Source: an uncultured Anaerobutyricum sp. (lineage in GTDB: Bacteria; Bacillota; Clostridia; Lachnospirales; Lachnospiraceae). Taken from it: DNA of 13,781 nt. The stretch covers positions 1 through 13,781 of the forward strand of contig CAKREJ010000034.1 of the NCBI GenBank assembly GCA_934317185.1, read 5' to 3'. Both the position numbers and the translations under genes were made by a program. The notes under the pieces were generated by a model. It had not been told where the DNA came from, ran no database searches, and saw only the letters and a list, made by a program, of their open reading frames with translations. Below, one piece after another: positions 1 to 13,544 of this stretch. Position 1 is the stretch's first letter, and every line of letters starts with the position of its first letter.

Positions 1-78
1 CGAGCTTTTATGCAAGCATTCAAGATGCAGCGACTACTGGCACAGATGCTATAAGATACTTTTTATTTTTCGTCCGTT
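1..78 (-). repeat. Palindromic repeat element, copy A (cut by window edge)
   Basis: This is the visible part of a repeated structured element. Bases 1-44 align without gaps to 746-789 of copy B (33 of 44 identical by hand). Bases 12-63 align without gaps to 12957-13008 of copy C (40 of 52 identical). Its right end, TTCGTCCGTT at 69-78, is identical to the right end of copy B at 815-824. The arm CTATAAGATACTTTT at 49-63 matches the copy C arm CTATAGGATACTTTT at one mismatch; its pairing partner would lie left of the window. The element runs straight into the fur gene, whose TAA stop (77-79) overlaps its last bases, so it would be transcribed as the fur 3' end. Homology to B and C is seen directly; function is unknown. 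Confidence 0.8.
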
Positions 79-505
79 AGCTCTTCAAATCAGAATTCTT
101 CGAACATTCTTCGCAAAGCCCATGAAGTAAATCCCCTCTACATTGTAACTGAAAATGATGTTCTGCCATAATATGTTCTCTTAATTCATCCATAAATCCG
201 CAGTCTAAATGCATTACTTTTCCGCACTTTACACATTTTAAATGCAGATGTTCTCTGCAATGCCCCTGCTCTCCCGCATATTGATAAACTGCCTTATCAA
301 TATTTACATCCGAATACTTTATAATTACATTTTCCGCACAAAGCTTATCCAGGAAACGATATATTGTCGTTGTATTTACCTTGACCTCTTTCTCCTCAAG
401 ATGCTTTTTTATATCTGCCGCACTTATCGTAGCTGAGCAGTTTTTTTTAAAATAATCAAGAATTTCTGATCTGCTTTTTGTTGTGTACGCTTTTCTTTCT
501 TTCAT
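77..505 (-). CDS. Fur-family metal-responsive transcriptional regulator
   Basis: This is a 142-residue protein, normal length for the Fur/Zur/PerR superfamily of metal-sensing repressors. The N-terminal winged helix covers about residues 1-78, with the recognition-helix signature TTTIYRFLDKL at 46-56. The dimerisation and metal-binding half contains HLHLKCVKCGKVMHLDC at 86-102. Two CxxC pairs (C91/C94 and C131/C134) should form the structural zinc site; H82, H86, H88, D101 and nearby residues could form the regulatory metal site. The closely packed HxHxxC motif fits Zur or Fur better than PerR, but the sensed metal cannot be decided from sequence. The ATG at 503-505 has an AAAGGAAG-type ribosome site about 12 nt upstream, rather distant. 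The gene stands alone between repeat copies A and B. Its stop codon is partly made by copy A. Confidence 0.93.
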   Translation of the reverse strand: MKERKAYTTKSRSEILDYFKKNCSATISAADIKKHLEEKEVKVNTTTIYRFLDKLCAENVIIKYSDVNIDKAVYQYAGEQGHCREHLHLKCVKCGKVMHLDCGFMDELREHIMAEHHFQLQCRGDLLHGLCEECSKNSDLKS

Positions 506-630
506 AATATTTATATACTTCCTTTTACTATGCTTTTATTTAAAGAACTGTAAATTTTGACTTTTAAAATCTTTTGTAAAACGCAATCTCTGCCCTCCTC
601 CCCTGCTCTTTCCTGCTATTTAATTTATTA
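506..630 (-). promoter_or_regulatory. Upstream region of the fur-family gene
   Basis: This 125-nt stretch between copy B and the regulator gene must hold the regulator's promoter if it has its own. TTTACA-like -35 hexamers occur on the minus strand (575-580 and 549-554), but no convincing -10 sits at proper spacing. The AT-rich part at about 555-570 includes TTTTAAAA, a weak dyad that could be an autoregulatory site. The distal part (590-616) is purine-rich on the minus strand with three evenly placed GCAG words. Boundaries and function are inferred. Confidence 0.3.
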
Positions 631-824
631 GGGACGGATGAAAAACAGAAAATTACTTTTTAATTCTCATCTTCAATTTAGGAAAAGACGAAAACCGTGC
701 GAAATAAAAAATCCTTATTTGTGGTCTCGGAGCAAGTATTGGATGCGAGCCTATAAGCGAACATTCAATACGCCGCGACTAAAGTCACAAATAAGAATTC
801 TTTTATTTCCGCGATTCGTCCGTT
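631..824 (-). repeat. Palindromic repeat element, copy B (complete)
   Basis: This is the fullest copy of the three-member family. A long imperfect stem pairs GACGAA (687-692) with TTCGTC (815-820), GCGAAATAAAA (699-709) with about 801-812, and CTTATTTGTG (714-723) with CACAAATAAG (786-795, ten perfect pairs). Inside, GTCTCGG (724-730) pairs with CCGCGAC (773-779) with one mismatch, and GTATTG plus ATG (736-744) pairs with CAT and CAATAC (763-771) around the loop CTATAA. A second left arm, ACGGATGAA (634-642), can pair instead with TTCGTCCGT (815-823, one G-U). It begins 13 nt after the hscC stop codon. No meaningful ORF lies in it. Confidence 0.8.
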
Positions 825-836
825 CTTAGTAAATAG

Positions 837-2534
837 TTATACCCACATTTCTTCCTCGATCCAATCAAGTGCTTCTTCGTAATCTTTTCTGGCTTCTTCA
901 ATTTTCAGTGGGTCCTGACGATCAAGGATTCTCTCAAATTGTTGCGTTACCATCTCAAGCTGTTCCCGGAGTTCTCCTGTAGTTTCTTCATATAGTCGTT
1001 CACCTCGAAGAAGCAGGACCTTATTCTTTTCCTGTTCTCTTGGTGGAATTTTAAGGTAAGAAAGTTCTTGCATTCGTGCTTTCATTTCTTCTTCTGTCAT
1101 ACTGTTTTCCTGATTCTTTATGAGACGGGTCACTGTTTCTCCTGTAGATACGATTTTGGCCTCAACTTCAAGTAAGGCATTGACATCATAAGTATAGGTA
1201 ATATCAATTTGTTCTTTTCCTGCCTCGTTATCCGGTACCGTAAGTTTTAAAGTTCCAAGAGAAACATTATTGGAAGCAAATCGGCTCTCTCCTTGTAATA
1301 TGTGTATTTCCACCTGCGTCTGATGATCGTATACCGTAAAAAAATGCTGGGTTCTGCTTGCCGGAATTACGGTATTTCTTTCTATAATGGGACAAAAATG
1401 ATTTCCCTCAAGATGTTCATTCTCCGTTTTAACGGAGACTTCCGTTCCAAGTGTAAATGGACAGACATCAGTAAGAATTACTTCCTTTACTGCTTCCCTT
1501 CGCTCTTTCATGGCAGCCTGGATTGCCGCTCCAAGTGCGACGGCCTCATCTGGATTAATGCTTGTATCCGGTACTCTTCCAAATAACTTACCAACAAACT
1601 TACGGACAAGCGGCATCTTCGTTGTTCCACCGACCAGTACAATCTCATCAATTTCTCCTGGCTTTACACCTGCATCAAAAAGGCTCTTTCTTACCGGAGT
1701 TTTAATGCGTTCCAAAAGCTGTCCGCTCATTTTTTCAAAAGCACCTCTTGGAATAAGTGTTTCTACTTTTTCTCCATTTACCAGTGCCTGCATACGATAA
1801 AATGCATCCGAGGAATCATTACATTTGCTCTTTTCTGCCTGATTACGATAATATGCCTTTTCTCTTGAGGAGAGCTTCTCTTCGTCAATTCCCTGCTCTT
1901 TATAAAATTGTTCTACGATCAGATTCGTAAAATCTTCTCCACCAAGATAATTATCTCCTGCGACCGCTCTTACCTCAAGAATATCGTCAAATAATTCAAG
2001 AATAGAAACATCGAAGGTTCCTCCACCAAGATCAAAAACAAGGAAACGGGTATTATCATTCTTCTGATAAAGTCCATAAGCAATTGCTGCCGCTGTTGGC
2101 TCACTGATAATCCTCTCTACTTTAAGTCCTGCTAATTCACCGGCCTGCTTTACTGCCTTCCTTTTTACTTCATTAAAATAGGCAGGAACACTGATAACCG
2201 CTTCTGTTACCTTTTCCCCAAGATAAACCTCCGCATCCTCTTTTAAAGAACGAAGAACCATTGCAGACAGCTCTGTTGCTGTAAATATCTTATCTCCCAG
2301 TTTAAATTCCTTCCGGCTTCCCATACTCCTCTTGAACAGATTCGCTGTCTGATCCGGATAAACTGCCATTCTCTCTAATGCCGTCTTTCCGACATAAACC
2401 TGATCATTTTCGTCAATGCTGACTACTGATGGGGTCAGTTTTTCTCCTAATCGATTTGGAATAATTTCAGGTCCATGTTCTGTATAATACGCCGCAAGAG
2501 AATTTGTCGTTCCTAAATCAATTCCAATAATCAC
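837..2534 (-). CDS. hscC: HscC-type Hsp70 chaperone
   Basis: This is an ATP-dependent Hsp70 of 565 residues, shorter than DnaK (about 610-640) and close to E. coli HscC (556). Numbering from the GTG start, nucleotide-binding motifs are DLGTTNS (6-12), VPAYF (116-120), EPTAAAIAYG (145-154), FDLGGGTFDVS (167-177), GDNYLGGEDF (193-202) and VGGTTKMPLVR (301-311). HscC-like rather than DnaK-like features are LFKRSMGS (67-74), ILTDVCPFTLG before the substrate domain, and PIIERNTVIPASR. The lid is short. The GTG at 2532-2534 is preferred because AGGAGGA lies six nt upstream and the protein then starts directly at IIGIDLGTTNS; a longer reading would add about 20 non-homologous residues. The start overlaps the J-protein stop as GTGA, indicating translational coupling. 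The upstream J protein is its presumed co-chaperone. Substrates are unknown. Repeat copy B follows the stop. Confidence 0.93.
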   Translation of the reverse strand: MIIGIDLGTTNSLAAYYTEHGPEIIPNRLGEKLTPSVVSIDENDQVYVGKTALERMAVYPDQTANLFKRSMGSRKEFKLGDKIFTATELSAMVLRSLKEDAEVYLGEKVTEAVISVPAYFNEVKRKAVKQAGELAGLKVERIISEPTAAAIAYGLYQKNDNTRFLVFDLGGGTFDVSILELFDDILEVRAVAGDNYLGGEDFTNLIVEQFYKEQGIDEEKLSSREKAYYRNQAEKSKCNDSSDAFYRMQALVNGEKVETLIPRGAFEKMSGQLLERIKTPVRKSLFDAGVKPGEIDEIVLVGGTTKMPLVRKFVGKLFGRVPDTSINPDEAVALGAAIQAAMKERREAVKEVILTDVCPFTLGTEVSVKTENEHLEGNHFCPIIERNTVIPASRTQHFFTVYDHQTQVEIHILQGESRFASNNVSLGTLKLTVPDNEAGKEQIDITYTYDVNALLEVEAKIVSTGETVTRLIKNQENSMTEEEMKARMQELSYLKIPPREQEKNKVLLLRGERLYEETTGELREQLEMVTQQFERILDRQDPLKIEEARKDYEEALDWIEEEMWV

Positions 2535-4459
2535 TGTGTTTCCTCCTGTAACTTTGTTAAAATCTGCGCTTTCCGATAAACAATCTCTGCCCATTCTTCT
2601 TCATCCATCTCTGATTGTAAAGACCATCCTTTCTTTTCTAATGTTTCAAGAATGGAAAGTGCCTTTTCTAAATCTTTTCGACTCTTTGCCCTTATTGCAA
2701 TATATCTTGCCCGAAGAAGTTCAAGTTCATCACTGTTTGCTCCATTTTCCCTTGCCAGTTCAAGGATATCTCTCACCTTATCCGGCTCGCCAAACAGCAG
2801 ATACATACGAATCAACGTACAATACGGTCTGGCATGGTACGGATACAATGCTGTTGCTCTCTGATAATCATTAATAACTTCCTGATACCTTCCAAGATAG
2901 AGGCAAGCCTCCTGTCTTAAAAGATATGCCGGATAATACTGTGGGTCGATAGCAAGAATTTTATCACAAATATCAAACATCCTGGCATATTCCTTTTTTC
3001 TACGCCAGATATCTGCCGCAGTGTGATAATAACTTACTTTTTGTGAAAGATCAGCCTCAGCCTCCACTGCTTTTTCTATGTAATCCATCACTTCAGAAAG
3101 ACTGCCTTCCTTACCTGCAAGAATTAAATCTGCCTTTGCAGAAGCAATCGTGTAGTACGCATAACCAAGTCGTGCTTTCTGTCTTTTTGTTTTCTTTGTC
3201 CCATCCGGACGAAGCTTTTGTATCGCATACAGCCACGGAAGCAAATGTTCCAACGCTTTTTCATCCTCATTAATCGTAAGATAGATTCTGCCTTTTAAAT
3301 TATGGTAATCCAGATAATGTTCCTCATCCGGTATAAAACCGTCAAGTAACGCAATCCCATCTTCAAATCTTGAATTTTGGTAATAACACCACGCAAGCTC
3401 CATCAATCCGTCCTGATTTAGTGCATTCTCTTTATATTTTGGCTCTAATTCTGCTATAACATACACATTGGCCTTATTAAGATCTTCTACTAACCTCTCA
3501 TCTACCGGACTTTCTTCTAACAAATCAAGAATAGCCTCCCTTGCCTTGCGATATTGTCCCTGCTGAAGCACCGCTTCCATCCTTCCGGTTCTTGCAAGAA
3601 AGGATTCCGGAGATACTTCTAAAACTCCATCGTATAGCTTGATCAGTCCGTCCCACTTCTCTTTTTCCTGACAGTATCTTCCATAACAGCATACGATTCG
3701 TTCTTCCTTCGGATAGTTTTCTGCAAGACGGCGAAAAATCTCACCACCTTCTTCCTGACAGTCCTTTTCTTCTTTACTATAGAGAATTCTTGCTTTTTCC
3801 AGTTCTGTATAAGGATGATAGATTTCATAGCTTTCTTCCATTATCTTATACTCTTCCCACGCTTCTTTTTGCATACCAAGATCTGCATACTGGCGAAGCT
3901 TATGATAATGTTCTATATAATCGTCTATATCCTGACCAACTTCACCTTCAAATAATTCATAATTTAACGCACCATTATAGCGGACAACCTGCTGTAAAAA
4001 GTCAACATATGGTTCCGGAAAAAGTTCAAGAAGCTCTCTGCGATTCCCTGTAATAGAAAAAGTATGATCTATCCTTTTCCACACAGGTGCCGGAAGACGG
4101 AAATGCTCCATTAAAAATATCAGGAAGCCTCTCCGTACTTCTTCACCACTTTCCAAACTAATACAAATATCTTCTGAAAAAAGCCGCTCCCACTCGTATT
4201 CATCAATTCTTCGATAAAAATCCTTATAAAGCTGTTCGCACCGAGACAGGAAGTCTTCAACTGGTGACAGTTTTTTTGACTTCTCCTCTTCTTTTTGCCT
4301 TGCGTACTTTAATGCTTCCTCGTAAGCAGTTCGAAGAAGCTTGAATCCATTCGGATCATCCTCAGGATTCACTGTGTGTAGCTTCGCCCTGTATGCTTTT
4401 TTAATCTCACTTTCTTCTTTTGTCTCTTCTATTCCTAATGTGTTAAAAAAATCATTCAT
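2531..4459 (-). CDS. J-domain protein with TPR-like repeats, HscC partner
   Basis: This is a 642-residue protein with an N-terminal J domain (about 1-55) followed by a long helical region rich in TPR-like pairs (about 170-640), for example the blocks around LAWCYYQNSRFEDGIALLDG and YRQEACLYLGRYQEVI-like repeats. J-domain helix II is IKKAYRAKL and helix III is FKLLRTAYEEAL. The canonical HPD tripeptide is replaced by NPE (31-33) within NPEDDPNGF. From memory, HscC-linked J proteins such as E. coli DjlB/DjlC also carry divergent xP(D/E)xDP versions, so this probably marks specificity rather than decay. It should stimulate the ATPase of the adjacent Hsp70 and use its TPR region for clients or partners (inference). 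It begins two nt after the sirtuin stop with only a weak ribosome site, and ends in a four-base overlap with hscC. Confidence 0.88.
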   Translation of the reverse strand: MNDFFNTLGIEETKEESEIKKAYRAKLHTVNPEDDPNGFKLLRTAYEEALKYARQKEEEKSKKLSPVEDFLSRCEQLYKDFYRRIDEYEWERLFSEDICISLESGEEVRRGFLIFLMEHFRLPAPVWKRIDHTFSITGNRRELLELFPEPYVDFLQQVVRYNGALNYELFEGEVGQDIDDYIEHYHKLRQYADLGMQKEAWEEYKIMEESYEIYHPYTELEKARILYSKEEKDCQEEGGEIFRRLAENYPKEERIVCCYGRYCQEKEKWDGLIKLYDGVLEVSPESFLARTGRMEAVLQQGQYRKAREAILDLLEESPVDERLVEDLNKANVYVIAELEPKYKENALNQDGLMELAWCYYQNSRFEDGIALLDGFIPDEEHYLDYHNLKGRIYLTINEDEKALEHLLPWLYAIQKLRPDGTKKTKRQKARLGYAYYTIASAKADLILAGKEGSLSEVMDYIEKAVEAEADLSQKVSYYHTAADIWRRKKEYARMFDICDKILAIDPQYYPAYLLRQEACLYLGRYQEVINDYQRATALYPYHARPYCTLIRMYLLFGEPDKVRDILELARENGANSDELELLRARYIAIRAKSRKDLEKALSILETLEKKGWSLQSEMDEEEWAEIVYRKAQILTKLQEETQ

Positions 4460-4461
4460 CT

Positions 4462-5181
4462 TTATAACTGTCCAAATACTTCTCCTATTTTATCGTTAAT
4501 CACTAAATCTGCCTGTGAATCTCTCTGTGTCTCTGACTTATTAATTAAAATAAGATGACTTCCCTTAAAATAATCAATAAGACCTGCTGCCGGATAAACA
4601 ACAAGGGAAGTACCTCCGATAATCAATACATCTGCCTGACTGATATAATGAATTGTTTTTGAAATGATATTCTCATCCAATCCTTCTTCATACAACACAA
4701 CATCCGGCTTGATCAAACCACCACATGCATCACATTTTGGTGCACCCTCACTGTTTTTTACATAAGCTGCATCAAAAAACTTTCCGCATCGCATACAATA
4801 ATTTCTATGAATACTTCCATGAAGCTCTAATACATTTTTACTTCCTGCCATCTGATGAAGTCCATCGATATTCTGGGTAACGACCGCACGGCATTTACCC
4901 TGCTTCTCCCACTCAGCTAACTTATAGTGTGCAGCATTCGGTTTTGCATCAAGTGCCATCATCTTATCTTTATAAAAATCAAAAAATTCCTTATTCCGTC
5001 TCATAAAAAAAGTATGACTGACAATGGTTTCCGGTGGATAATCATACTTTTGGCTATAAAGACCATCTGTACTTCTAAAATCAGGAATACCACTTTCTGT
5101 AGAAACCCCGGCTCCTCCGAAAAATACCAGATTATCTGTTCCATCAATAATTTCCTTTAACTGTCTGATCTTCTCGTTCAT
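4462..5181 (-). CDS. NAD-dependent protein deacylase (sirtuin)
   Basis: This is a 239-residue sirtuin, usual length for bacterial Sir2/CobB proteins, which remove acyl groups from lysine using NAD and release nicotinamide and O-acyl-ADP-ribose. Visible motifs are GAGVSTESGIPDFRS (23-37, Rossmann/NAD), TQNIDGLH (102-109), the catalytic His121 in ELHGS, a zinc ribbon with C129, C132, C150 and C153, KPDVVLYEE (158-166) and GTSLVVYPA (190-198). All core catalytic residues are present. It lacks the Ala-to-Tyr/Arg pair that would mark a desuccinylase such as CobB/SIRT5 as far as I can see, so deacetylase is the more likely activity. The start is firm: AGGAGG lies seven nt before the ATG. It follows the DUF445 gene by 36 nt and precedes the J-protein gene by 2 nt, suggesting a shared transcript. 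Confidence 0.94.
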   Translation of the reverse strand: MNEKIRQLKEIIDGTDNLVFFGGAGVSTESGIPDFRSTDGLYSQKYDYPPETIVSHTFFMRRNKEFFDFYKDKMMALDAKPNAAHYKLAEWEKQGKCRAVVTQNIDGLHQMAGSKNVLELHGSIHRNYCMRCGKFFDAAYVKNSEGAPKCDACGGLIKPDVVLYEEGLDENIISKTIHYISQADVLIIGGTSLVVYPAAGLIDYFKGSHLILINKSETQRDSQADLVINDKIGEVFGQL

Positions 5182-5217
5182 AAATATACCTCCTGTCTAC
5201 TTCACCATAGGGTAATA

Positions 5218-6120
5218 TTAAATCATAAAAATAACCACATTAATAAGTCCTAATATAAGCCCGATAACTGCACCAAGATTTACGATAGCTCCAAGCTCTT
5301 TGTTCATTATAGAAAGAACCAGTTCCTCTACCTCCTCAACCTTCATCGCATTAATCCGTTCTTCCACTACAGCAGAAAGCTTCAGAGAAGAAAGCAGCTT
5401 TCCTAGCTTCTCCTCTATGATTCTTTTATAAAGTCCCCATAAAAACTCCGGATCATATATTCCCTTCTGCTCAAGAATATCTGCCACTTCTGACATCGGC
5501 TTTTCCTGAAGTTTCAAAGACTCTGCCATAACTTCCTTCTCAATATATCCCCTTGCATTCTCTGCTATGTAAGAATCAATTCCTTCCTGTACCTGTGTTC
5601 CGATTTTCTCCAGAAAAGATCCTCCAAGCATCATTCCAAACATAGATTCTGCAAGCCTGCTCTGTGCCTCCTTCATTACCTTATCTACAATAAGCTTTCC
5701 CGGCTCCATCTCAATAACTTTTTCTGAAAGAAAATCCGTCAAATCCTCTTCCACTGATGCAATAAAATCGTCAACCTTTTCCTCTGTCACGATATTCGTC
5801 ACGGTCAGACGAAGACTTTCCTCAGAATTTTTCTGTGCATTCACCCAATCTTGTACATGACATTTAAACTCTTCTTCTGACTCTTTAGACAAAAGCTTCT
5901 CTCCCATAAATTCCGGAGTTAAAAGCTGTGTTTCTACCACTTCACCAACCGCTCTTGCCAGCCTTCCCTGACCTCTGGGAATTACTCCCGGTGTAAATGG
6001 AAGACGCTTTCCAAATATGCGAATCTCCTGTCTTGGACGAAATAGCATCTTTACTGCGATCCAGTTTGTCACATAACCAATGATAGCCCCAATAACAGGG
6101 GTTGCTATATATTTCCACAT
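5218..6120 (-). CDS. DUF445 family membrane protein
   Basis: This 300-residue protein belongs to the DUF445 (YheB-like) family, whose function is unknown. The N-terminal hydrophobic segment (about 4-22) leads into the family signature PVIGAIIGYVTNWIAVKMLF and then RLPFTPGVIPRGQGRLA. The middle (about 60-265) is charged and helical. A C-terminal hydrophobic segment (about 274-299, GAVIGLILGLINVVIFMI) ends the protein, so it is probably membrane-anchored at both ends with the middle domain on one side. GGAG at 6130-6133 lies about nine nt before the ATG. It is the first gene of the probable DUF445-sirtuin-J-protein-hscC set, with no terminator in the 36-nt gap after it. Confidence 0.9.
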   Translation of the reverse strand: MWKYIATPVIGAIIGYVTNWIAVKMLFRPRQEIRIFGKRLPFTPGVIPRGQGRLARAVGEVVETQLLTPEFMGEKLLSKESEEEFKCHVQDWVNAQKNSEESLRLTVTNIVTEEKVDDFIASVEEDLTDFLSEKVIEMEPGKLIVDKVMKEAQSRLAESMFGMMLGGSFLEKIGTQVQEGIDSYIAENARGYIEKEVMAESLKLQEKPMSEVADILEQKGIYDPEFLWGLYKRIIEEKLGKLLSSLKLSAVVEERINAMKVEEVEELVLSIMNKELGAIVNLGAVIGLILGLINVVIFMI

Positions 6121-6313
6121 AATCTTTTGCTCCTTATTCTAACTACGCTAAATGTTCACAATACTCATTTGCAAAATAAGTCTCCTATACTTTTATTGCT
6201 CCTTTAGCTACTCCTTCACATAAATTTTTGACAATCTATATAAACTATATAAATATGAACAGTTACATATTATCATATCCTGCTTTAAATGCAAGAATCA
6301 AATGCGGTTCACA
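6121..6313 (-). promoter_or_regulatory. Upstream region of the DUF445-sirtuin-chaperone set
   Basis: This 193-nt AT-rich gap lies between the helicase stop and the DUF445 start, so it is where a promoter for the four-gene set should be. It contains TATATA-AAC-TATATA repeats at about 6235-6251. Several poor -10-like words occur on the minus strand, but I cannot pick a convincing -35/-10 pair. A TTGACA (6228-6233) faces the opposite way. No hairpin with a T-run strong enough to call a helicase terminator was found. Confidence 0.3.
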
Positions 6314-8701
6314 TCAAGATTCCTGCCTCTCATATTTCTTCCAGAATTCTTCTAAAACCTGTCCGCAATTATTCTGGTTCACTACATAATAACTTTCCCA
6401 ATCTGTCGGAAGCAGCTTCTGATTCTCCATTTCCAAAAAGCGTTCATCCATTAAAAGAATCATTCCTATATCCTGTGCTGTCCGAATTACTCTGCCGGCA
6501 GCCTGCAGTACCTTATTCATTCCCGGATACCGATATGCATAATCATATCCTTTTTTCTGTTGTCTGTCAAAATAATCCCGGATTACTTCTCTCTCGTTAC
6601 AAAGCTGTGGAAGCCCGGTGCCCACAATCAATACTCCGATAAGACTTTCTCCTGTAAGATCAATTCCTTCTGAAAAAATACTTCCAAGAACACAAAAACC
6701 TATTAAAGACTTTTTCGACTTCTTCTGATATCTTTCTAAAAACTCTTCTCTTCTTCTTTCTTCCATATAAGGTTCCTGCACGATTAATTCTGATACAAAA
6801 TTAAGTGTACTTTTCTCTGCGATCTCGTATACTGCAGATAACATCTCATAAGAGGGAAAAAATATCATATATTTTCCAGGTCTTTTTTCCAGACAAATTT
6901 CCAGATAACGTACTATTTTTTCGTATTCTTTTTCTCCCCTTCTTGTATAGCGACTTGTCACATCTTCTGTAATCGCCAAAATACGCTTCTCTTTTTCAAA
7001 AGGAGAACTAATTTGATATGCCTCATAATGATTCCCTAAAAGAAGCTGTCTGTAATACTGCACGGGCAAAAGTGTTGCTGAGAAAAAAATACTTGAACGG
7101 CTGTTTTGGATATATTCCTCCAGCTTATCCGATGGATTTACACAAAAAAGCCGCAAAAAAAAGTCCCTCCCTCTTTTTTCACTATAAATTTCATATCCAT
7201 TATCCATTCCGTCTAATATCATATAAAAATGACTGATTTTGAAATAAAACTCTACGATTTCTTCCCGTTCCGGGAAATTTTCATGGTCTGTAAGATATTC
7301 TTCTAACGGCCCTATCAAATGAAAAATCGGAAAATAGACAGCATCTGCATTTTTATGTAAGTGAAAATATGCTACTTCCTCCGCTTCTTTTTCCAGCTTT
7401 CTAAGAGCAAGAACACAATTATTTAATTTTTTATATAAAAAATGATTCCTCTCCTTAAAATACTTCTTCGGCATTTTAAAATCGCTTTTTGCTATATCAG
7501 CACTATACATATCTCTTGCCCGGTCAAGCAAGTTATGTGCTTCGTCAATCAAATATATATTCTGCCGCTGACTTCCTTCTATCAGACTTTTTCGATTTAC
7601 ATGTGGATCAAATACATAATTGTAATCACAGATAATACAATCTGCCCATGCCGCTGCCTCAAAAGACAACTCATAGGGACAGACACTGTATTTTTCTGCA
7701 TATAAAAGAATATTCTCCCGATCAATAGCCACTTCTGCATTGAGTAGTGCATAAAGTGCCTCATTAATTCTGTCGAAATGTCCCGCTGCTCTCTCACATT
7801 TATCTGGATTACACTGCATTTCCTCCTGAATACAGATTTTTTCCTTTGCTGTAATCACAACAGAAGAAAGATAAAGTCCCTGTTTTTTTAGCAGCCTTAC
7901 GGTATCCTCGGCCACTGTTCTTGTAATCGTCTTCGCCGTAAGATAAAAAATATTCTCTGCCTTTTCTTCACCAAGCTCCTTCAATGCTGGATAAAGGGTT
8001 GAGATTGTTTTCCCAACTCCTGTTGGTGCCTGTAAAAAAATATGTTTTTTTTCTTCCATCGCCCGGTAAGCAATTGCTGTCAGTTTCTTCTGTCCCGGTC
8101 GAAATAAAAAGGGAAACTTTAACTGTTGAATACTCTCATTTCTTCTTTTTCTCGCTTCTACATAGTAAAAAGCCCACATTCGATATGCATCCAACACTTC
8201 CGCAAACCACAGAGAAAGTTCTTCGATTGTATAAGAATAAAAAATTCTCTTTATTTCCTCCGTTTCTAAATGACAGTACGTAATCTGCACACCAATCTTT
8301 TCCAAATCCTGTCTGTGACCATACAAATATGCATAACATTTTGCCTGTGCAAGATGTAATGCTTCTGCCTCATCTATTTCTTCTATATTTTTATAAACAC
8401 ATTTTATTTCATCGATATAATAAAGCTTTTCTCCTTCCTTTTCTATCCAGTCAATTCCATCTGCACGCCCTTCCAGGACTAGTTTATATCCACTCTCATT
8501 CCATTCCATTTTTAACGGTACTTCACTTTGATAGGTTGCTTTTTGCTCTCTTTGTATTTTCCGATGCATCCGACTTCCTTCAAGCATTGCTTCAGGCTTG
8601 GCACTTACGGAAGAACCTGTTGTAATATCACCACTGCGAAATAAAAATTCTACCAGATGCCGTACTGAGGTTTTTACAATCCCCTTTTGATAGGACAACA
8701 T
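6314..8701 (-). CDS. RecB-like nuclease fused to DinG/XPD-type Fe-S helicase
   Basis: This 795-residue protein combines a PD-(D/E)xK nuclease and a superfamily 2 Rad3/XPD-type DNA helicase. Nuclease (about 1-180): GxxxH at 42-46, D81 in GRADG, E98-I-K100 in IDEIKC, and QxxxY at 119-123, a complete RecB/Cas4-type active-site set. Helicase (about 195-795): Walker A APTGVGKT (225-232), DEAH box 386-389 in YLIDEAHNLL, four cysteines C290, C297, C302 and C341 placed like the Fe-S cluster of XPD/DinG, and C-terminal AAGRVIRTAQDIG (motif VI). It probably unwinds DNA and cuts or trims it during repair (inference). The start has GGAGGA eight nt upstream of the ATG. It seems to be transcribed alone. 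Such fusions are recurrent in Firmicutes chromosomes as far as I recall, so this need not be a defence gene. Confidence 0.9.
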   Translation of the reverse strand: MLSYQKGIVKTSVRHLVEFLFRSGDITTGSSVSAKPEAMLEGSRMHRKIQREQKATYQSEVPLKMEWNESGYKLVLEGRADGIDWIEKEGEKLYYIDEIKCVYKNIEEIDEAEALHLAQAKCYAYLYGHRQDLEKIGVQITYCHLETEEIKRIFYSYTIEELSLWFAEVLDAYRMWAFYYVEARKRRNESIQQLKFPFLFRPGQKKLTAIAYRAMEEKKHIFLQAPTGVGKTISTLYPALKELGEEKAENIFYLTAKTITRTVAEDTVRLLKKQGLYLSSVVITAKEKICIQEEMQCNPDKCERAAGHFDRINEALYALLNAEVAIDRENILLYAEKYSVCPYELSFEAAAWADCIICDYNYVFDPHVNRKSLIEGSQRQNIYLIDEAHNLLDRARDMYSADIAKSDFKMPKKYFKERNHFLYKKLNNCVLALRKLEKEAEEVAYFHLHKNADAVYFPIFHLIGPLEEYLTDHENFPEREEIVEFYFKISHFYMILDGMDNGYEIYSEKRGRDFFLRLFCVNPSDKLEEYIQNSRSSIFFSATLLPVQYYRQLLLGNHYEAYQISSPFEKEKRILAITEDVTSRYTRRGEKEYEKIVRYLEICLEKRPGKYMIFFPSYEMLSAVYEIAEKSTLNFVSELIVQEPYMEERRREEFLERYQKKSKKSLIGFCVLGSIFSEGIDLTGESLIGVLIVGTGLPQLCNEREVIRDYFDRQQKKGYDYAYRYPGMNKVLQAAGRVIRTAQDIGMILLMDERFLEMENQKLLPTDWESYYVVNQNNCGQVLEEFWKKYERQES

Positions 8702-8795
8702 AATACAGTCCTCCTTTTCTTTTAATGCCTTCTAATACTTTTTTGTCATTCTTTCTTATCTCATAAGTTTTAATTTATCATTCACATTAATATAT

Positions 8796-8824
8796 GTTGT
8801 ATTTTTTATCTTTTTTACTTTCAA
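8796..8824 (-). promoter_or_regulatory. Candidate promoter of the nuclease-helicase gene
   Basis: On the minus strand, TTGAAA (8819-8824, five of six to consensus) is followed after 17 nt by TACAAC (8796-8801, four of six). It lies about 95 nt upstream of the helicase ATG. The surrounding sequence is very AT-rich, so chance matches are likely. Confidence 0.3.
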
Positions 8825-8949
8825 ATGAAATCATATCGTAATTCTCTCTTTGATTCCCTACGGGCTAATATTATTATAAACAATAACTTTCTGTCTATTT
8901 CATTCTTTGAAAAATCAAAAAACATAGCTTTTATAAATTCCGTATAAAA

Positions 8950-8993
8950 GAAAATGCCCACAATGAGGGGCAAAACTCATTGTGGACATTCTC
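8950..8993 (-). terminator. Strong hairpin terminator
   Basis: Bases 8950-8967 pair with 8976-8993 (16 of 18 pairs) around an eight-base loop. On the minus strand the stem is followed by TTTTC and TTTTATA, typical of an intrinsic terminator. It lies about 220 nt after the pyrophosphatase stop, so it would end that transcript or a short RNA starting nearer. Confidence 0.75.
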
Positions 8994-9213
8994 TGTATAA
9001 TACTAACCTTTAACTTAGGGGATTACTTTAATTATAATACAACACTTTTCTAAAACTTTCATGCCTTTGTAGAGGAATTTCTTGTTCAATTTCAAAGAAT
9101 TTGTTGATATTCGTATTAATACAGCAACTTTCTTTCATTTGAAACGAAAAATCACACTCTTTTCACTTTATTTTCGAAGTTTCTTAATTTCTTTCCCTAA
9201 GAATATCTTTTTC

Positions 9214-10869
9214 TTATCCTAACTGTCCAAGAATTGCAGGGATTAACTGTTTCTTTCTGGATACTACTCCAGGAAGTTCTGCAGAACTATCTTCCACAGT
9301 TGCTTCAAAAGCATTCTCTATAACCTCTTTGCACATATCACCTACCATTAATAACTCTGTAGACTCACCAATGATATCTGTCATCATAAAGAATACCATA
9401 TCAAGACCATAGGATGTCCTTACCTCCTCCATATAAGGCAGAAGCTTTTCTTTACATGCAGAAAGCTCCTCTTTGTTCATGGAACTAATCTGTCCCACAC
9501 CAAAATTGACATTGGAATCATTGAACTTTTTGAAATCCTGATAAAAAATCTCTTTTGCAGATTTTTCTCTCAAATTACTTCCTGCATCAAACATATCTTT
9601 TGCATATTTTTCAATCTCAATATGTGCGATTGATGCAAGCTTCTCTGCAACAATATGATCGATTGCTGTACAGGTTGGAGAACGGAACATTAATGTATCT
9701 GAAAGAATCGCTGAACATAACATACCTGCAATCTTTTCCGGAATCTCAATATTATTCTCCATATACATCTGCGTAATAATAGTTGCTGTACATCCTACCG
9801 GCTGGTTTCTGAAAAATACCGGAGAATTCGTCTCAATATTTCCAAGACGATGATGGTCAATAATCTCTAAAATCTCTGCTTCTTCAAATCCGTCTACAGC
9901 CTGTGCCTTCTCATTGTGATCAACAAGAATGAGCTTCTTTCTATCTAAATCTAATAAATTACGTCTTGAAATCATTCCTACATAATTACCCTGATTATCT
10001 GTAATAGGGAAATCACGGAATCTTCTCTTTGCCATAATCTCCTGAATATCATCCACATAATCTGTTGTGTGGAATGTAATCAGATTATCTGTTGTCATAA
10101 AGTAGCGAACCGGCATACTGTGGTTGATCAATCTTGCTACAGTATATGTATCATATGGACTTACGATAATACGACATCCATGCTCTTTCGCCATTTTACG
10201 GATCGTTTTTGAAACAGTTGCTCCCATACAAACTACAATACACTGGGCATCCATCTCAATCGCACAAAGCTGGGATTCATAACGGTTACCTAAAATAACC
10301 ATATCCTGTGGCTCAATATATCCTTCCATCATATCTGGATTTGCGGCAGCAATCAAAACATGACCTTCTTCAAACTTACCATCAAGTTCTCCTACGATCA
10401 TCTCACCGTCAATCGTCTCCACAATATTCTTATAACTTGTACCAGCTTTTGATAAAATCATATTATCATATACATCCATATCAGAGTATGCAATATCGCT
10501 GACCGTAATAATTCCCGCAAGTTTACCTTCCTCGAGAATAGGTAATGAAACAATACGGGCACCTCTCATGATATCCCATGCCTTTTTAAGAGACAAACCA
10601 GCATCTACACCTTCTGTCTTACGAATCTCAATGTCCGTAACCTGTGGACGGATATCATTCACATACAAGGGTGCTTCCTGTCCGAAATAATTCAATACAT
10701 ACTGTGTTTCTTCATTAATATGACCGGCTCTTGTAGGAATATATTTGTATTCCTCCTCCTGCTTCTGACTTAATTCATTTTTAAGATATGCATAAGAAAT
10801 TGCTGAACAGATGCTATCTGTATCCGGATTCTTATGACCAATTACATAAATATTATTCTTTTTACTCAA
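9214..10869 (-). CDS. ppaC: Manganese-dependent inorganic pyrophosphatase with CBS and DRTGG domains
   Basis: This 551-residue family II (DHH) pyrophosphatase hydrolyses pyrophosphate to phosphate with Mn/Co. The catalytic domain is split: N-terminal GHKNPDTDS (H12, D16, D18), then VDHNE (D317, H318), DHHRLG (338-343) and SDTLMF (D391), with the substrate-binding SRKKQ near the C-terminus (537-541). Inserted between about 73 and 306 are CBS 1 (73-130), a DRTGG domain (about 140-245) and CBS 2 (about 250-306). In this subfamily, adenine nucleotides bound by CBS domains regulate activity, and DRTGG-containing forms are known to bind diadenosine polyphosphates. The start codon is TTG (10867-10869): no in-frame ATG exists before the GHKNPDTDS motif, and AAAGGA lies ten nt upstream. 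It follows the unknown 364-375 aa gene by 47 nt, with no clear terminator between them. Confidence 0.95.
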   Translation of the reverse strand: MSKKNNIYVIGHKNPDTDSICSAISYAYLKNELSQKQEEEYKYIPTRAGHINEETQYVLNYFGQEAPLYVNDIRPQVTDIEIRKTEGVDAGLSLKKAWDIMRGARIVSLPILEEGKLAGIITVSDIAYSDMDVYDNMILSKAGTSYKNIVETIDGEMIVGELDGKFEEGHVLIAAANPDMMEGYIEPQDMVILGNRYESQLCAIEMDAQCIVVCMGATVSKTIRKMAKEHGCRIIVSPYDTYTVARLINHSMPVRYFMTTDNLITFHTTDYVDDIQEIMAKRRFRDFPITDNQGNYVGMISRRNLLDLDRKKLILVDHNEKAQAVDGFEEAEILEIIDHHRLGNIETNSPVFFRNQPVGCTATIITQMYMENNIEIPEKIAGMLCSAILSDTLMFRSPTCTAIDHIVAEKLASIAHIEIEKYAKDMFDAGSNLREKSAKEIFYQDFKKFNDSNVNFGVGQISSMNKEELSACKEKLLPYMEEVRTSYGLDMVFFMMTDIIGESTELLMVGDMCKEVIENAFEATVEDSSAELPGVVSRKKQLIPAILGQLG

Positions 10870-10879
10870 AATTCCTATA

Positions 10880-10885
10880 TCCTTT
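10880..10885 (-). promoter_or_regulatory. Ribosome binding site supporting the TTG start of ppaC
   Basis: AAAGGA on the minus strand lies ten nt before the TTG at 10867-10869. A nearer AGGA (10873-10876) is only three nt from the start and is probably too close. Together with the lack of an upstream in-frame ATG, this fixes the TTG start. Confidence 0.6.
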
Positions 10886-10916
10886 CTTTATTATTTGGGG
10901 GAATTCATTTACCCTT

Positions 10917-12011
10917 CTACTTTTTTCCACCATCTATAATTGTAAACAAATTCTTTCTATTTTTCAATTGTTTCTGATAAGATATTTTTTTATATTCTGT
11001 TCTCGAATATCCTTTATATTCAAATATCGGGACATTTTCAAAAAGCTGATGTATTGCCTGTTCTGCTTCCTCTTTATGTTCTTTCCTTGTAAAAGATACA
11101 CCATCCAGCCTATCCTGCAATTTTTCATAACTACAGCTATTCTTAATCATAACAAGTAACGTTTTAACTAAAACTGTTGCAGAATAATAATTCATTCCCA
11201 TTTTATCGATCAAAAGGCTTCCAAGCTCGCTGACACCCGGCCAACGATTATCTATTCCGGCTGCATCACTGACATAAATTAAATCTTCTACCTTAATCAG
11301 CTTATATGGAATCTCCCCATGCTCTTTGATATATTCAAGAAGCAAGTCTGCATTCTCCACACAAAGATACTGAAAATATTCATTCCTTCCTGTTATATCT
11401 TTAAGAATCGCACCAAAAGACCACAAAGAACTCCTACATTTAATAAAAAGAATGAAATCTTCATAAGAAATAATCTTCTTAGATACTTTTAAGAACAGAG
11501 AATATAACGTCTTCATCTCTATAAAACCATAGTAGTACATAAATCCGGTAATAATCTTCTCCCATTCTTCATATATTGAAAGAAGCTCCCTGTTCTTCTT
11601 ACTTTTCAATAGAAAATAAAATGTATCCTTCATCTCCGGTACAATCATGATCTGATTTGGCTCATCAGAAATCGGATTCCCCATACGACAGGTTAAAAAT
11701 CCAAAAATCTTTAGATACTCAATATAATCCCATTGTTCTTCTGCCATGAGAATACTGTCACTTTCCCATACTTCCATCAAAAAATCAAGCATTGCTTTCG
11801 GCAGCATAAAGAGAATCCACTTCGGCTCGGAACAAAATTCCTCCTTAAACGCAGCTATATATGCTTCCTTAGGCAGTCCCTCTTCATATTCAATTCCAAT
11901 TCGTCCAAGTATCGACTTCACCGTTGACACAGGAGTACTCTTCATAACATTTTCTGCTTCCAGACTACTGATAATAACTTTAGCTTCGTCTGCGATATAT
12001 CTGTCCTGCAT
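10917..12011 (-). CDS. Conserved-looking hypothetical protein, unrecognised
   Basis: I do not recognise this soluble, mixed-charge protein of 364 residues. Starting from ATG 12009-12011 it begins MQDRYIADEAK, with GGGAG five nt upstream. The ATG at 12042-12044 would add 11 residues (375 aa) but has no ribosome site. No signal peptide, membrane segment, Walker motif or metal-binding cluster is visible. It is predicted mostly helical, with aromatic-rich stretches such as WEKIITGFMYYYGFIEMKTLYSLF and a Lys/Arg-rich tail. It lies between a SEC-C protein gene and the pyrophosphatase, 47 nt from the latter. Its general look recalls the N-terminal part of larger Firmicutes proteins that end in SEC-C, but it has no SEC-C motif itself; this resemblance is an impression, not an alignment. 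Confidence 0.8.
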   Translation of the reverse strand: MQDRYIADEAKVIISSLEAENVMKSTPVSTVKSILGRIGIEYEEGLPKEAYIAAFKEEFCSEPKWILFMLPKAMLDFLMEVWESDSILMAEEQWDYIEYLKIFGFLTCRMGNPISDEPNQIMIVPEMKDTFYFLLKSKKNRELLSIYEEWEKIITGFMYYYGFIEMKTLYSLFLKVSKKIISYEDFILFIKCRSSLWSFGAILKDITGRNEYFQYLCVENADLLLEYIKEHGEIPYKLIKVEDLIYVSDAAGIDNRWPGVSELGSLLIDKMGMNYYSATVLVKTLLVMIKNSCSYEKLQDRLDGVSFTRKEHKEEAEQAIHQLFENVPIFEYKGYSRTEYKKISYQKQLKNRKNLFTIIDGGKK

Positions 12012-12137
12012 ATTCTCTCCCATCATCTTTGCTGCGTGGCTCATAGTCTTAGAGCTGCACTAAGAAAAACAACTTTGTTGCACTTAAGAATGCCCCTGCA
12101 TCTACTACATAAGCAGTGACAAAACAACATGAAAACA

Positions 12138-12159
12138 GCACCCTGCAAACACAGGATGC
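12138..12159 (-). terminator. Terminator downstream of the SEC-C gene
   Basis: On the minus strand GCATCCTG pairs with CAGGGTGC (7 of 8) around TGTTTG, followed by TGTTTTC and further T-rich sequence. It begins about 39 nt after the SEC-C stop codon and most likely ends that transcript. Confidence 0.6.
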
Positions 12160-12166
12160 CGTTCAC

Positions 12167-12183
12167 AAGGCATACCATGCCTT
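12167..12183 (-). other. Perfect short hairpin after the SEC-C stop
   Basis: AAGGCAT (12167-12173) and ATGCCTT (12177-12183) form seven perfect pairs around a three-base loop. It has no T-run of its own and precedes the terminator hairpin by 7 nt on the minus strand, so it may protect the mRNA 3' end or assist termination. Confidence 0.5.
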
Positions 12184-12197
12184 ATACTATTACATGA

Positions 12198-12704
12198 CTA
12201 TTTATTACGTCCACAACACTTCTTATACTTCTTACCACTTCCACATGGACATGGATCATTACGTCCGATCTTTGGAGGCTTAACAACAGTTGTAGAACTT
12301 CTCTGTTCTTTGTACAACTCTTTACGTCTTTCTGCTGTTAAAAGAGTTGTCCACTGCTCTAAACCATATAACCAATCTGCTTTAGCAGCAACCATGTTAT
12401 AGTAAAGCTTCTCTTTATCATAGTCTAAAGATACTACTGTATTCTCATCCATATCATCAATAGGATTTGGATTTTTTAAACTATCATTAATTCCATCTAA
12501 GAAACCTACAAAATAAGTAAGCTCCATGTTATATTTCTGTGCTAATTCTGCAACTGTTCCACTTACCGGTTCTTCTGGTGTAGAAAGAATCTGCTCATAT
12601 ACTGCCTTCTCCTGATTAAAATATCCAATCCAGAACTCCTGTCCTTCTCTGGTTCTATCATCATGACTATACGCAAACTCTCTCCAATCTGTTAATAAAG
12701 ACAT
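12198..12704 (-). CDS. Small protein with C-terminal SEC-C zinc motif
   Basis: This 168-residue protein ends in a SEC-C motif: [18 protein letters not shown] with C152, C154, C163 and C164 (the last or a nearby residue completing the zinc site). SEC-C was named from the C-terminus of SecA, where it binds zinc and contacts SecB and ribosomes, but it occurs in many unrelated proteins. Residues 1-135 form a helical, acidic domain I cannot assign, with blocks such as [19 protein letters not shown] and [15 protein letters not shown]. No membrane segment or signal peptide is seen. AAAGGA lies eight nt before the ATG, so the start is sound. It appears monocistronic, with hairpins and a terminator following. 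A role in protein quality control or ribosome-related work is only a guess from the motif. Confidence 0.88.
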
Positions 12705-12836
12705 ATCTCTTTTCCTTTCTTTTCAAACGATTCCCATAAATCACCTTGATATAACAATATTCAAATTTATGGCATCATATATTACAACAGTATACCAAAA
12801 TCCCTACAAAAATTCAATATATATTTTTATTCGGTA

Positions 12837-12874
12837 ATTCCTCTCCCTCTTTTGTTTATCTTCAGGAGGGGAAT
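12837..12874 (-). other. Imperfect hairpin upstream of the SEC-C gene
   Basis: ATTCCTCTCC (12837-12846) can pair with GGAGGGGAAT (12865-12874), nine Watson-Crick pairs and one mismatch or wobble, with an 18-nt loop. Neither strand has a following T-run, so it is not a typical terminator. It may be a boundary of the copy C region or an RNA structure of unknown use. Confidence 0.4.
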
Positions 12875-12909
12875 CCTTTACTTGATTGTTAAAACAGACA
12901 AAAATAATA

Positions 12910-13008
12910 AAAAGTATCCTATAGCAGATATGACCCCTGAGTAATCAGAAACTGTGGCAAGCAATCTCCATGCAACAACTAAAGGTACATATACTATAGG
13001 ATACTTTT
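12910..13008 (-). repeat. Palindromic repeat element, copy C, terminator-like
   Basis: AAAAGTATCCTATAG (12910-12924) and CTATAGGATACTTTT (12994-13008) are a perfect 15-bp inverted repeat. Beneath it, ATATGACC (12928-12935) pairs with GGT-A-CATAT (12984-12992) with one bulge. The enclosed 48 nt contains the hairpin CTGA-GTAA-TCAG (12937-12948) and the core shared with copies A and B: 12957-13008 matches A at 40 of 52 ungapped positions, and 12957-12989 matches B 757-789 at 21 of 33. The left part, CTGAGTAA, resembles CGGAGCAA in B (728-735). It lacks the CGTCCGTT outer ends of A and B. On the minus strand the stem is followed by TTTTTATTATTTTT, so it could terminate the DUF6465-type gene, whose stop lies 38 nt upstream. 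Confidence 0.8.
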
Positions 13009-13046: not shown

Positions 13047-13544
13047 TTAGAATAAAAATACTTTTCCTGAGTTATTATCATTAATTACATAATAAGCAGA
13101 TGCATCTTCTGGCTTTAAATAGATTTTTAAAGACTTAATATCACTTTCTTTATGACCTTCTTCTACATACTGCTTTTTAATTCTTTCTGTAATCATAGCT
13201 AAATTAGATTCGTTACCCTGATACTGTACATATACTTCCGGCTCTGCCACGGCTGCTTTTACTTCTGCAACTTTTTCCTTTACAGTCTTCTCAACTTTTT
13301 TTGTAACTTCTTTTGCTTTATCTACAACTTTAGCTCCTGTATCTTTTACTGTTTCTTTTGCTGCTGCTGCCACTTCTTTAATGTCAGCATCCACTGCTTT
13401 TTCTTTCTTTACTTCTACTTCTTTTACAACTGCTTCTTTTACTTCCTCTGCGGCTTCTACTGCTGTCTTTGTTGCTGTTTTAGCTGCTGTAGATGCTTTT
13501 GCTGCTGCTTTCTTCTTTGCCGTTCTTGCTGTTGTTCTTGCCAT
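13047..13544 (-). CDS. Ala/Lys-rich protein with DUF6465-like C-terminal domain
   Basis: This 165-residue protein has two parts. Residues 1-100 are almost wholly Ala, Lys, Thr, Val and Glu in short amphipathic repeats (ARTAKKKAAAKASTAAKTA at the start), resembling histone H1-like or stress-type helical tails; the first 30 residues are strongly basic. Residues about 100-165 (VYVQYQGNESN, ERIKKQYVEEGHKESDIKSL, KIYLKPEDASAYYVIND, GKVFLF) look like a small alpha/beta domain that I identify from memory as DUF6465, common in Lachnospiraceae and of unknown function. A DNA- or RNA-binding or surface role would be a guess. AGGAGG lies about eight nt before the ATG and a good promoter lies upstream. 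The gene is flanked by a tRNA and repeat copy C and appears monocistronic. Confidence 0.85.
   Translation of the reverse strand: MARTTARTAKKKAAAKASTAAKTATKTAVEAAEEVKEAVVKEVEVKKEKAVDADIKEVAAAAKETVKDTGAKVVDKAKEVTKKVEKTVKEKVAEVKAAVAEPEVYVQYQGNESNLAMITERIKKQYVEEGHKESDIKSLKIYLKPEDASAYYVINDNNSGKVFLF

Follow-up and report, generated by a model that had tools for sequence, protein, structure and literature searches.

What are the three long palindromes that follow genes in this DNA, and what keeps their arms paired? The window (the whole stretch analysed, 13,781 nucleotides from an uncultured Anaerobutyricum sp.) carries one at its start (A), one behind an Hsp70-like gene (B) and one near its far end (C). 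The first-pass annotation had taken the three to be homologous, and a repeat search of the window confirmed this at the stretches it had aligned, assigning 12-63, 757-808 and 12957-13008 to one repeat family with 77% identity between A and C and 62% between A and B over 52 nt. With blastn, A matched C at E 1e-5 and B at E 0.006. We built a covariance model, R1, from B, C and 32 copies from A. hallii (34 sequences), which recovered the excluded A at E 6e-4 over positions 1-56, A being cut by the window start; a broader model covering several core types, R2, reported B and C, and not the truncated A, at E 0.01. B scored 101.3 bits with R1 and 72.3 bits with R2, and C 47.8 and 53.1 bits, both elements being part of both training sets. 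The family sense is that of the minus strand for all three elements, which is the strand of the upstream gene in each case. The features are as follows.

1..79, minus strand: element A, truncated (tag, left arm and 5' part of the core), directly at the fur stop codon; R1 score 27.2 bits
71..79, minus strand: 5' tag TAACGGACG of A, whose TAA is the fur stop
77..505, minus strand: fur-family gene, upstream of A (Pfam FUR, E 7.6e-15)
693..824, minus strand: element B, with a type I core; arms 693-723 and 786-816, core 720-789
720..789, minus strand: conserved asymmetric core of B, 93% to the A. hallii-derived core consensus (alignment A1)
815-824, minus strand: tag AACGGACGAA, part of element B
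837..2594, minus strand: Hsp70-like gene (Pfam HSP70), its stop 12 nt from the tag of B
12910..13008, minus strand: element C; arms 12910-12929 and 12989-13008, divergent core
13047..13544, minus strand: DUF6465 gene (Pfam DUF6465), its stop 38 nt from C

Two of the proposed boundaries required revision. The homology of A stands, but positions 1-79 are the 5' part (read on the minus strand) of an element that continues beyond the window start; and of the 631-824 span given for B only about 693-824 belongs to the family, 631-692 being an extra flanking palindrome. The arm sequence of C resembles that of A.

Several other features of the window were recorded. Its predicted proteins resemble those of Anaerobutyricum. 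The protein of the DHH/DHHA2 gene (9214-10869) is 95% identical to its counterpart in A. hallii DSM 3353, and between the stop of this gene and the start of a helicase-like gene lies a plain 19-nt inverted repeat (8949-8994, 89%) with an 8-nt loop and no core, a candidate for an ordinary terminator. In 837-4459 the Hsp70-like gene overlaps an ORF for a TPR protein that also matches DnaJ, though not at the curated cut-off, so that two chaperone-like genes are paired in an unusual way. A 375-aa ORF at 10917-12044 has no Pfam match at E 0.001 and has DNA-level matches in A. hallii and in a second Anaerobutyricum species (G302, 3.5 Mb).

Copies from A. hallii and G302 bear out the idea of an outer stem enclosing a conserved inner domain. 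Read in the sense of the core, an element consists of an AAC(A/G)GACG tag, an arm, the core, the matching arm, TTCTGT with a T/G-rich tail, and outer inverted repeats that are specific to subfamilies (e.g. AATACTAATTTG or AATTCTGATTTG). The whole hairpin measures about 130-180 nt and the core 60-70 nt; the arms are near-perfect and roughly 22-30 bp long, the paired part outside the core being about 22 bp in type IV and about 28 bp in types I and III (the core type names I-IV were coined in this analysis). Types I, III and IV share an asymmetric internal loop in the core, whose two sides have the consensus sequences TAGTCGC and GCTCCGA; type II carries a changed form of it, TATCAC / GCTCTAA, and the loop of C is also of a changed form. 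A regular expression placed the tag on the 5' side in 105/112 elements, and one more, L136:19893, is likewise 5'-tagged and escaped the pattern owing to its position at the locus end. The reverse-complemented tag was found on the 3' side in 7/112 elements, 5 of which have a 5' tag as well. An apparent inversion of the spacer relative to the tag in C and L032 was suggestive and is not claimed here, since the tags can be read either way.

The arms and tag also occur apart from the core: at the A. hallii locus L023 the arm sequence of A and C forms a plain hairpin that lacks it, and at the A. hallii counterpart of the C site a tagged hairpin without a core adjoins a family element. A second layer of repeats is visible in G302, where the spacers between inverted element pairs on contig C1 have mosaic modules in common, up to about 190 bp long and present in either orientation (e.g. 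L143:7581-8198 and L146:18123-19032), resembling BIME-type mosaics.

Three copies in one window had been taken to imply many in the genome, an expectation borne out in the relatives A. hallii DSM 3353 and G302. With B as the query against A. hallii (G001), all 40 of the scored candidates, out of 328 from a first look, were strong matches. R1 matched 150/150 scored candidates in the same species (of 1440 first-look candidates), which correspond to at least 141 distinct places, and 130/150 in G302; R2 matched 150/150 in each of the two. Within 800 kb of G302, R1 identified 72 distinct places (80 rows, of which 8 give the opposite strand of a place already counted) and R2 78 places (79 non-window rows, one place being found on both strands), the weakest few of these 78 being doubtful. 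Extrapolated to the 3,515,670 bases of contig C1, 78 places per 800 kb would amount to about 340.

Beyond these two genomes the family was not detected in the collections searched. In the remaining 22 of the 24 genus genomes R1 found no copy at E 0.01, and R2 again found none; 1/299 genomes in a family-wide sample matched R1 and 1/392 in an order-wide sample, which overlaps the former, matched R2, in both cases A. hallii itself, with at most 14 and 11 candidates scored per genome, respectively, so that single weak copies could be missed. No R1 match was present in loci L002-L022, which surround 21 genes more distantly related to the window gene, and no match to B in phage and plasmid collections by blastn at the sensitivity used for distant matches; two exact-pattern matches in viral contigs lacked a surrounding element and were rejected as copies. 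Rfam, run on the whole window and on the elements, returned a tRNA for the window and no entry describing the family at the gathering score; the sub-threshold matches were judged to be chance, the best being a miRNA-type hairpin that scored 27.2 bits where the gathering score is 75. In the open-access PMC literature we found nothing recognisable as this repeat. Among the genomes searched, the family is confined to the A. hallii group.

The elements begin at the stop codon of a same-strand gene or shortly behind it, as A, B and C do behind the fur, Hsp70-like and DUF6465 genes, and sometimes supply the stop themselves. Using genes defined by simple longest-ORF calls and not by a trained gene finder, we found a same-strand gene directly upstream of 55/72 R1 elements in G302, and, counting genes of at least 110 codons, a stop codon within 90 nt of the match start in 52/72. 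The GAC(G/A) motif starts 0-36 nt past the stop in 46 of the 52 and later in 2, and the pattern did not recognise it in 4; in about 22/52, read by eye from the list, an in-frame stop lies within the end of the element. Orientation within inverted element pairs is partly expected from the symmetry of the pair. Single elements of G302, with no neighbour within 700 bp, had a stop on the 5' side in 23 cases, on the 3' side only in 2 and on neither in 4 (23 vs 2, p 2e-5; the control, random intergenic positions, gave 646/3366), and with the distance raised to 1000 bp the counts were 19, 0 and 3. Furthermore, a separate set of 40 copies (39 from A. hallii, plus B) was examined for the closest ORF on the 5' side: it stops toward the element in 32 copies and starts there in 7, while 1 copy has no such ORF.

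At orthologous gene ends the elements differ between species. A full relative of A (around G302:C1:2272544-2272622, 96% over window 1-79) sits in G302 behind a gene other than fur, and fur is followed there by two other elements. The B site carries a type I core with unrelated arms in A. hallii and a plain hairpin in G302; the C site carries a type I element in A. hallii and, in G302, a hairpin whose interior is unrelated. Stretches of G302 were matched by 13 A. hallii loci, and we compared 10 intergenic regions side by side, having excluded L040, L060 and L068 (matches of only about 210 nt) and L075 (which repeats L032); the 10 include L056, which is the B site again, and L026, a truncated copy. 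In none of them (0/10) was the same subfamily with the same arms retained. At L055 and L032, the same stop codon has a type I element in A. hallii and a type III element in G302, the L037 site holds a plain hairpin in G302 and the L061 site no element at all. Within A. hallii, L038:1330-1650 appears to be chimeric, an older type II left arm being joined to a type I element. The comparison of the 10 orthologous regions yielded no clean empty site with a target duplication; the sites are mosaics. Gene ends that differ between orthologues, together with the recurrence of A behind a different gene, point to DNA that is mobile or repeatedly overwritten, and the data fit mobility as well as overwriting or gene conversion; mobility as such is what we infer.

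The first-pass annotation had argued that stems which vary while pairing is kept indicate selection on structure. The pairing is indeed kept: in 110 of 112 elements (2 were left out for short flanks), 3303/3407 aligned arm cells hold Watson-Crick pairs, gaps open 48 times, and 37/110 elements have perfect arms. When copies are compared in pairs, positions changed on both sides outnumber those changed on one side by 2052/485 in type IV (34 copies), 742/74 in type III (15 copies) and 5855/609 in type I (36 copies), counts in which related copies are not independent. The covariation signal of alignment A1 is above that of every one of 500 shuffles and of all slid controls, the structure being taken from the same alignment. 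In type IV (34 copies), arm positions 3-11 differ between copies at 0.35-0.38 per site, positions 12-22 at 0.06-0.09 and the core at 0.06, such that the arms are six times more variable than the core, their pairing maintained mostly by two-sided change. We considered this arm block as actively hypervariable and dropped that reading in favour of free drift with arm copying, since variation is greater still (0.63) outside the hairpin.

Two observations make the step from kept pairing to selected structure unsafe. First, arm mismatches comprise nearly as many A-C cells (19) as G-U cells (24), compared with 84 G-U and 35 A-C in 125 ordinary hairpins found after 534 stops in the same stretches, a difference that is suggestive only (Fisher p 0.09), the ordinary set having been chosen by other criteria. 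Second, two G302 copies (L187 ~4236-4351 and L144:12107-12219) have become perfect palindromes of at least 53 bp with 6-nt loops and intact tags, the 5' half of the core in both being the reverse complement of the 3' half; copying in the opposite direction, of the 5' half over the 3' half, was looked for among the copies and none was found. Palindromised copies are a signature of template switching at the DNA level, a process that homogenises inverted-repeat arms in the cases treated in the parts of PMC8794818 and PMC8604942 drawn on here, and by which arms can be paired with no selection. It appears that arm pairing in this family is kept at the level of DNA, leaving RNA selection unnecessary, and we infer that template switching inside the hairpin is what matches the arms.

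The same data bear on an alternative in which the elements are a structured 3'-UTR RNA family, the core being a protein-binding or regulatory RNA domain and the arms covarying under selection for RNA pairing. The strict placement past stop codons on the gene's strand, the internal loop conserved across core types and the covariation above its controls would all be expected of such a family, but the mismatch spectrum of the arms, the two palindromised copies, the very narrow distribution and the lack of an Rfam match at the gathering score argue against it, and we consider it unlikely. Very unlikely, in our assessment, is that these are ordinary intrinsic terminators whose loops share sequence by chance, with no mobile element involved: they do occupy the position of terminators, and plain long hairpins fill the orthologous G302 slots at the B and L037 sites, yet the 141 or more A. 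hallii copies share a core as well as tags outside the arms, and no copy was found in 22 of 24 genomes of the genus, which need terminators too. Integron attC sites are folded sites that lie after genes and are recognised as single-stranded hairpins. That the elements are recombination sites of this attC type, a reading suggested by their place behind genes in gene-sense polarity and by an asymmetric folded motif that is conserved while the stems vary, is hardly credible, given that no integron integrase exceeded the curated cut-off in A. hallii or G302 (2/2 genomes; sub-threshold matches were of the same kind in all 14 control genomes) and that the elements are scattered singly or as inverted pairs and not in cassette arrays.

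The search for a gene that moves the repeat covered Y1 transposases in addition to integron integrases. Y1 transposases occur in 16/24 genomes of the genus, repeat-free ones included, with 7 matches in G302 and 6 in A. hallii in open frames of 77-160 aa. In 0/13 cases do elements lie within 500 nt on each side of the match; L195 comes closest, with an element about 0.4 kb away on one side and another about 1.9 kb away on the other. A Y1 transposase as the partner is not supported.

These results favour the MITE/REP-like reading offered at the outset. We consider it probable that A, B and C belong to a non-coding, high-copy palindromic mobile repeat of a REP/MITE-like kind, with a core at the hairpin tip, stop codons as sites and arms that are copied from one another. 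We chart the following model for this repeat. The long DNA hairpin ends in a conserved, asymmetric folded core, which probably serves as the site recognised by the agent that moves the family. Stop codons, in the terminator slot of a gene, are where copies gather, and the comparison shows them turning over between species. The arms evolve freely, and the sequence signature points to each change being copied to the other arm by template switching inside the hairpin. Many copies are probably also terminators, some of them bidirectional, judging from their position and A/T tracts. A more specific version, which we put forward tentatively and regard as doubtful, is that of hairpin-borne mobile DNA: an enzyme or recombination process would read the folded core, install the element precisely at stops in gene sense and replace terminators, with arms of arbitrary sequence held in perfect pairing by template switching and recognition resting on fold and core, not on terminal sequence.

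If the probable reading of a mobile repeat with copied arms is correct, the family would provide a natural experiment in which DNA template switching accounts better than RNA selection for covariation in bacterial hairpins, and a warning for covariation-based discovery of RNAs. The comparison also shows one repeat family extensively remodelling gene 3' ends between closely related gut bacteria, and finding the partner of the core would reveal a mobile system that is directed at gene ends and reads the tip of a hairpin.

Bacterial MITE-like repeats are non-coding, 70-300 bp long, folded and located next to genes, with terminal inverted repeats. Among those named in PMC3733652 are NEMIS, RUP, ERIC, Bcr1 and EFAR. 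When MITE criteria were applied, the present family proved non-coding and dispersed, with terminal inverted repeats, and is likewise folded and gene-adjacent. It differs from MITE-like repeats in that the terminal repeats vary among subfamilies, the core and not the ends being conserved. Neither a parent insertion sequence (Y1 and integron-integrase genes searched) nor, at the mosaic orthologous sites, a target duplication was found. The arms, in turn, recall the template-switch events at quasi-palindromes in rRNA, microRNA or yeast coding sequences that PMC8794818 and PMC8604942 describe, sharing arm homogenisation, multi-site compensatory change and occasional spacer inversion; unlike the cases in the portions of those papers considered, the process appears to act here across many copies of one repeat.

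The nearest kind would be the REP elements. As presented in the sections of PMC3733652 used here, REPs of the GTAG and CGTC super-families are high-copy palindromes lying mostly within 20 bp of gene 3' ends, between convergent or tandem genes and often as inverted dimers; their termini can provide a stop codon, a tetranucleotide tag marks one end, the unit is 20-40 bp (8-9 bp stems and 4-5 nt loops in the CGTC families), and the CGTC REPs have no dedicated transposase. Word searches of the main texts of PMC3733652 and of the REP survey PMC12306157 returned no word beginning with Firmicutes, Clostridi or Eubacterium. Measured against this description, the A. hallii-group repeat resembles REPs in its high copy number, gene-3'-end position, dimers, supply of stop codons and one-sided tetranucleotide, and departs from them in its longer arms, its structured core and the size of its hairpin; the GACG tag on the 5' side is, moreover, the reverse of the CGTC-stem-CCA order of CGTC REPs. 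Because size, core and tag orientation differ, we do not file the repeat as a REP and regard it as a variant of the palindromic-repeat kind whose closest known representatives are the REP elements.
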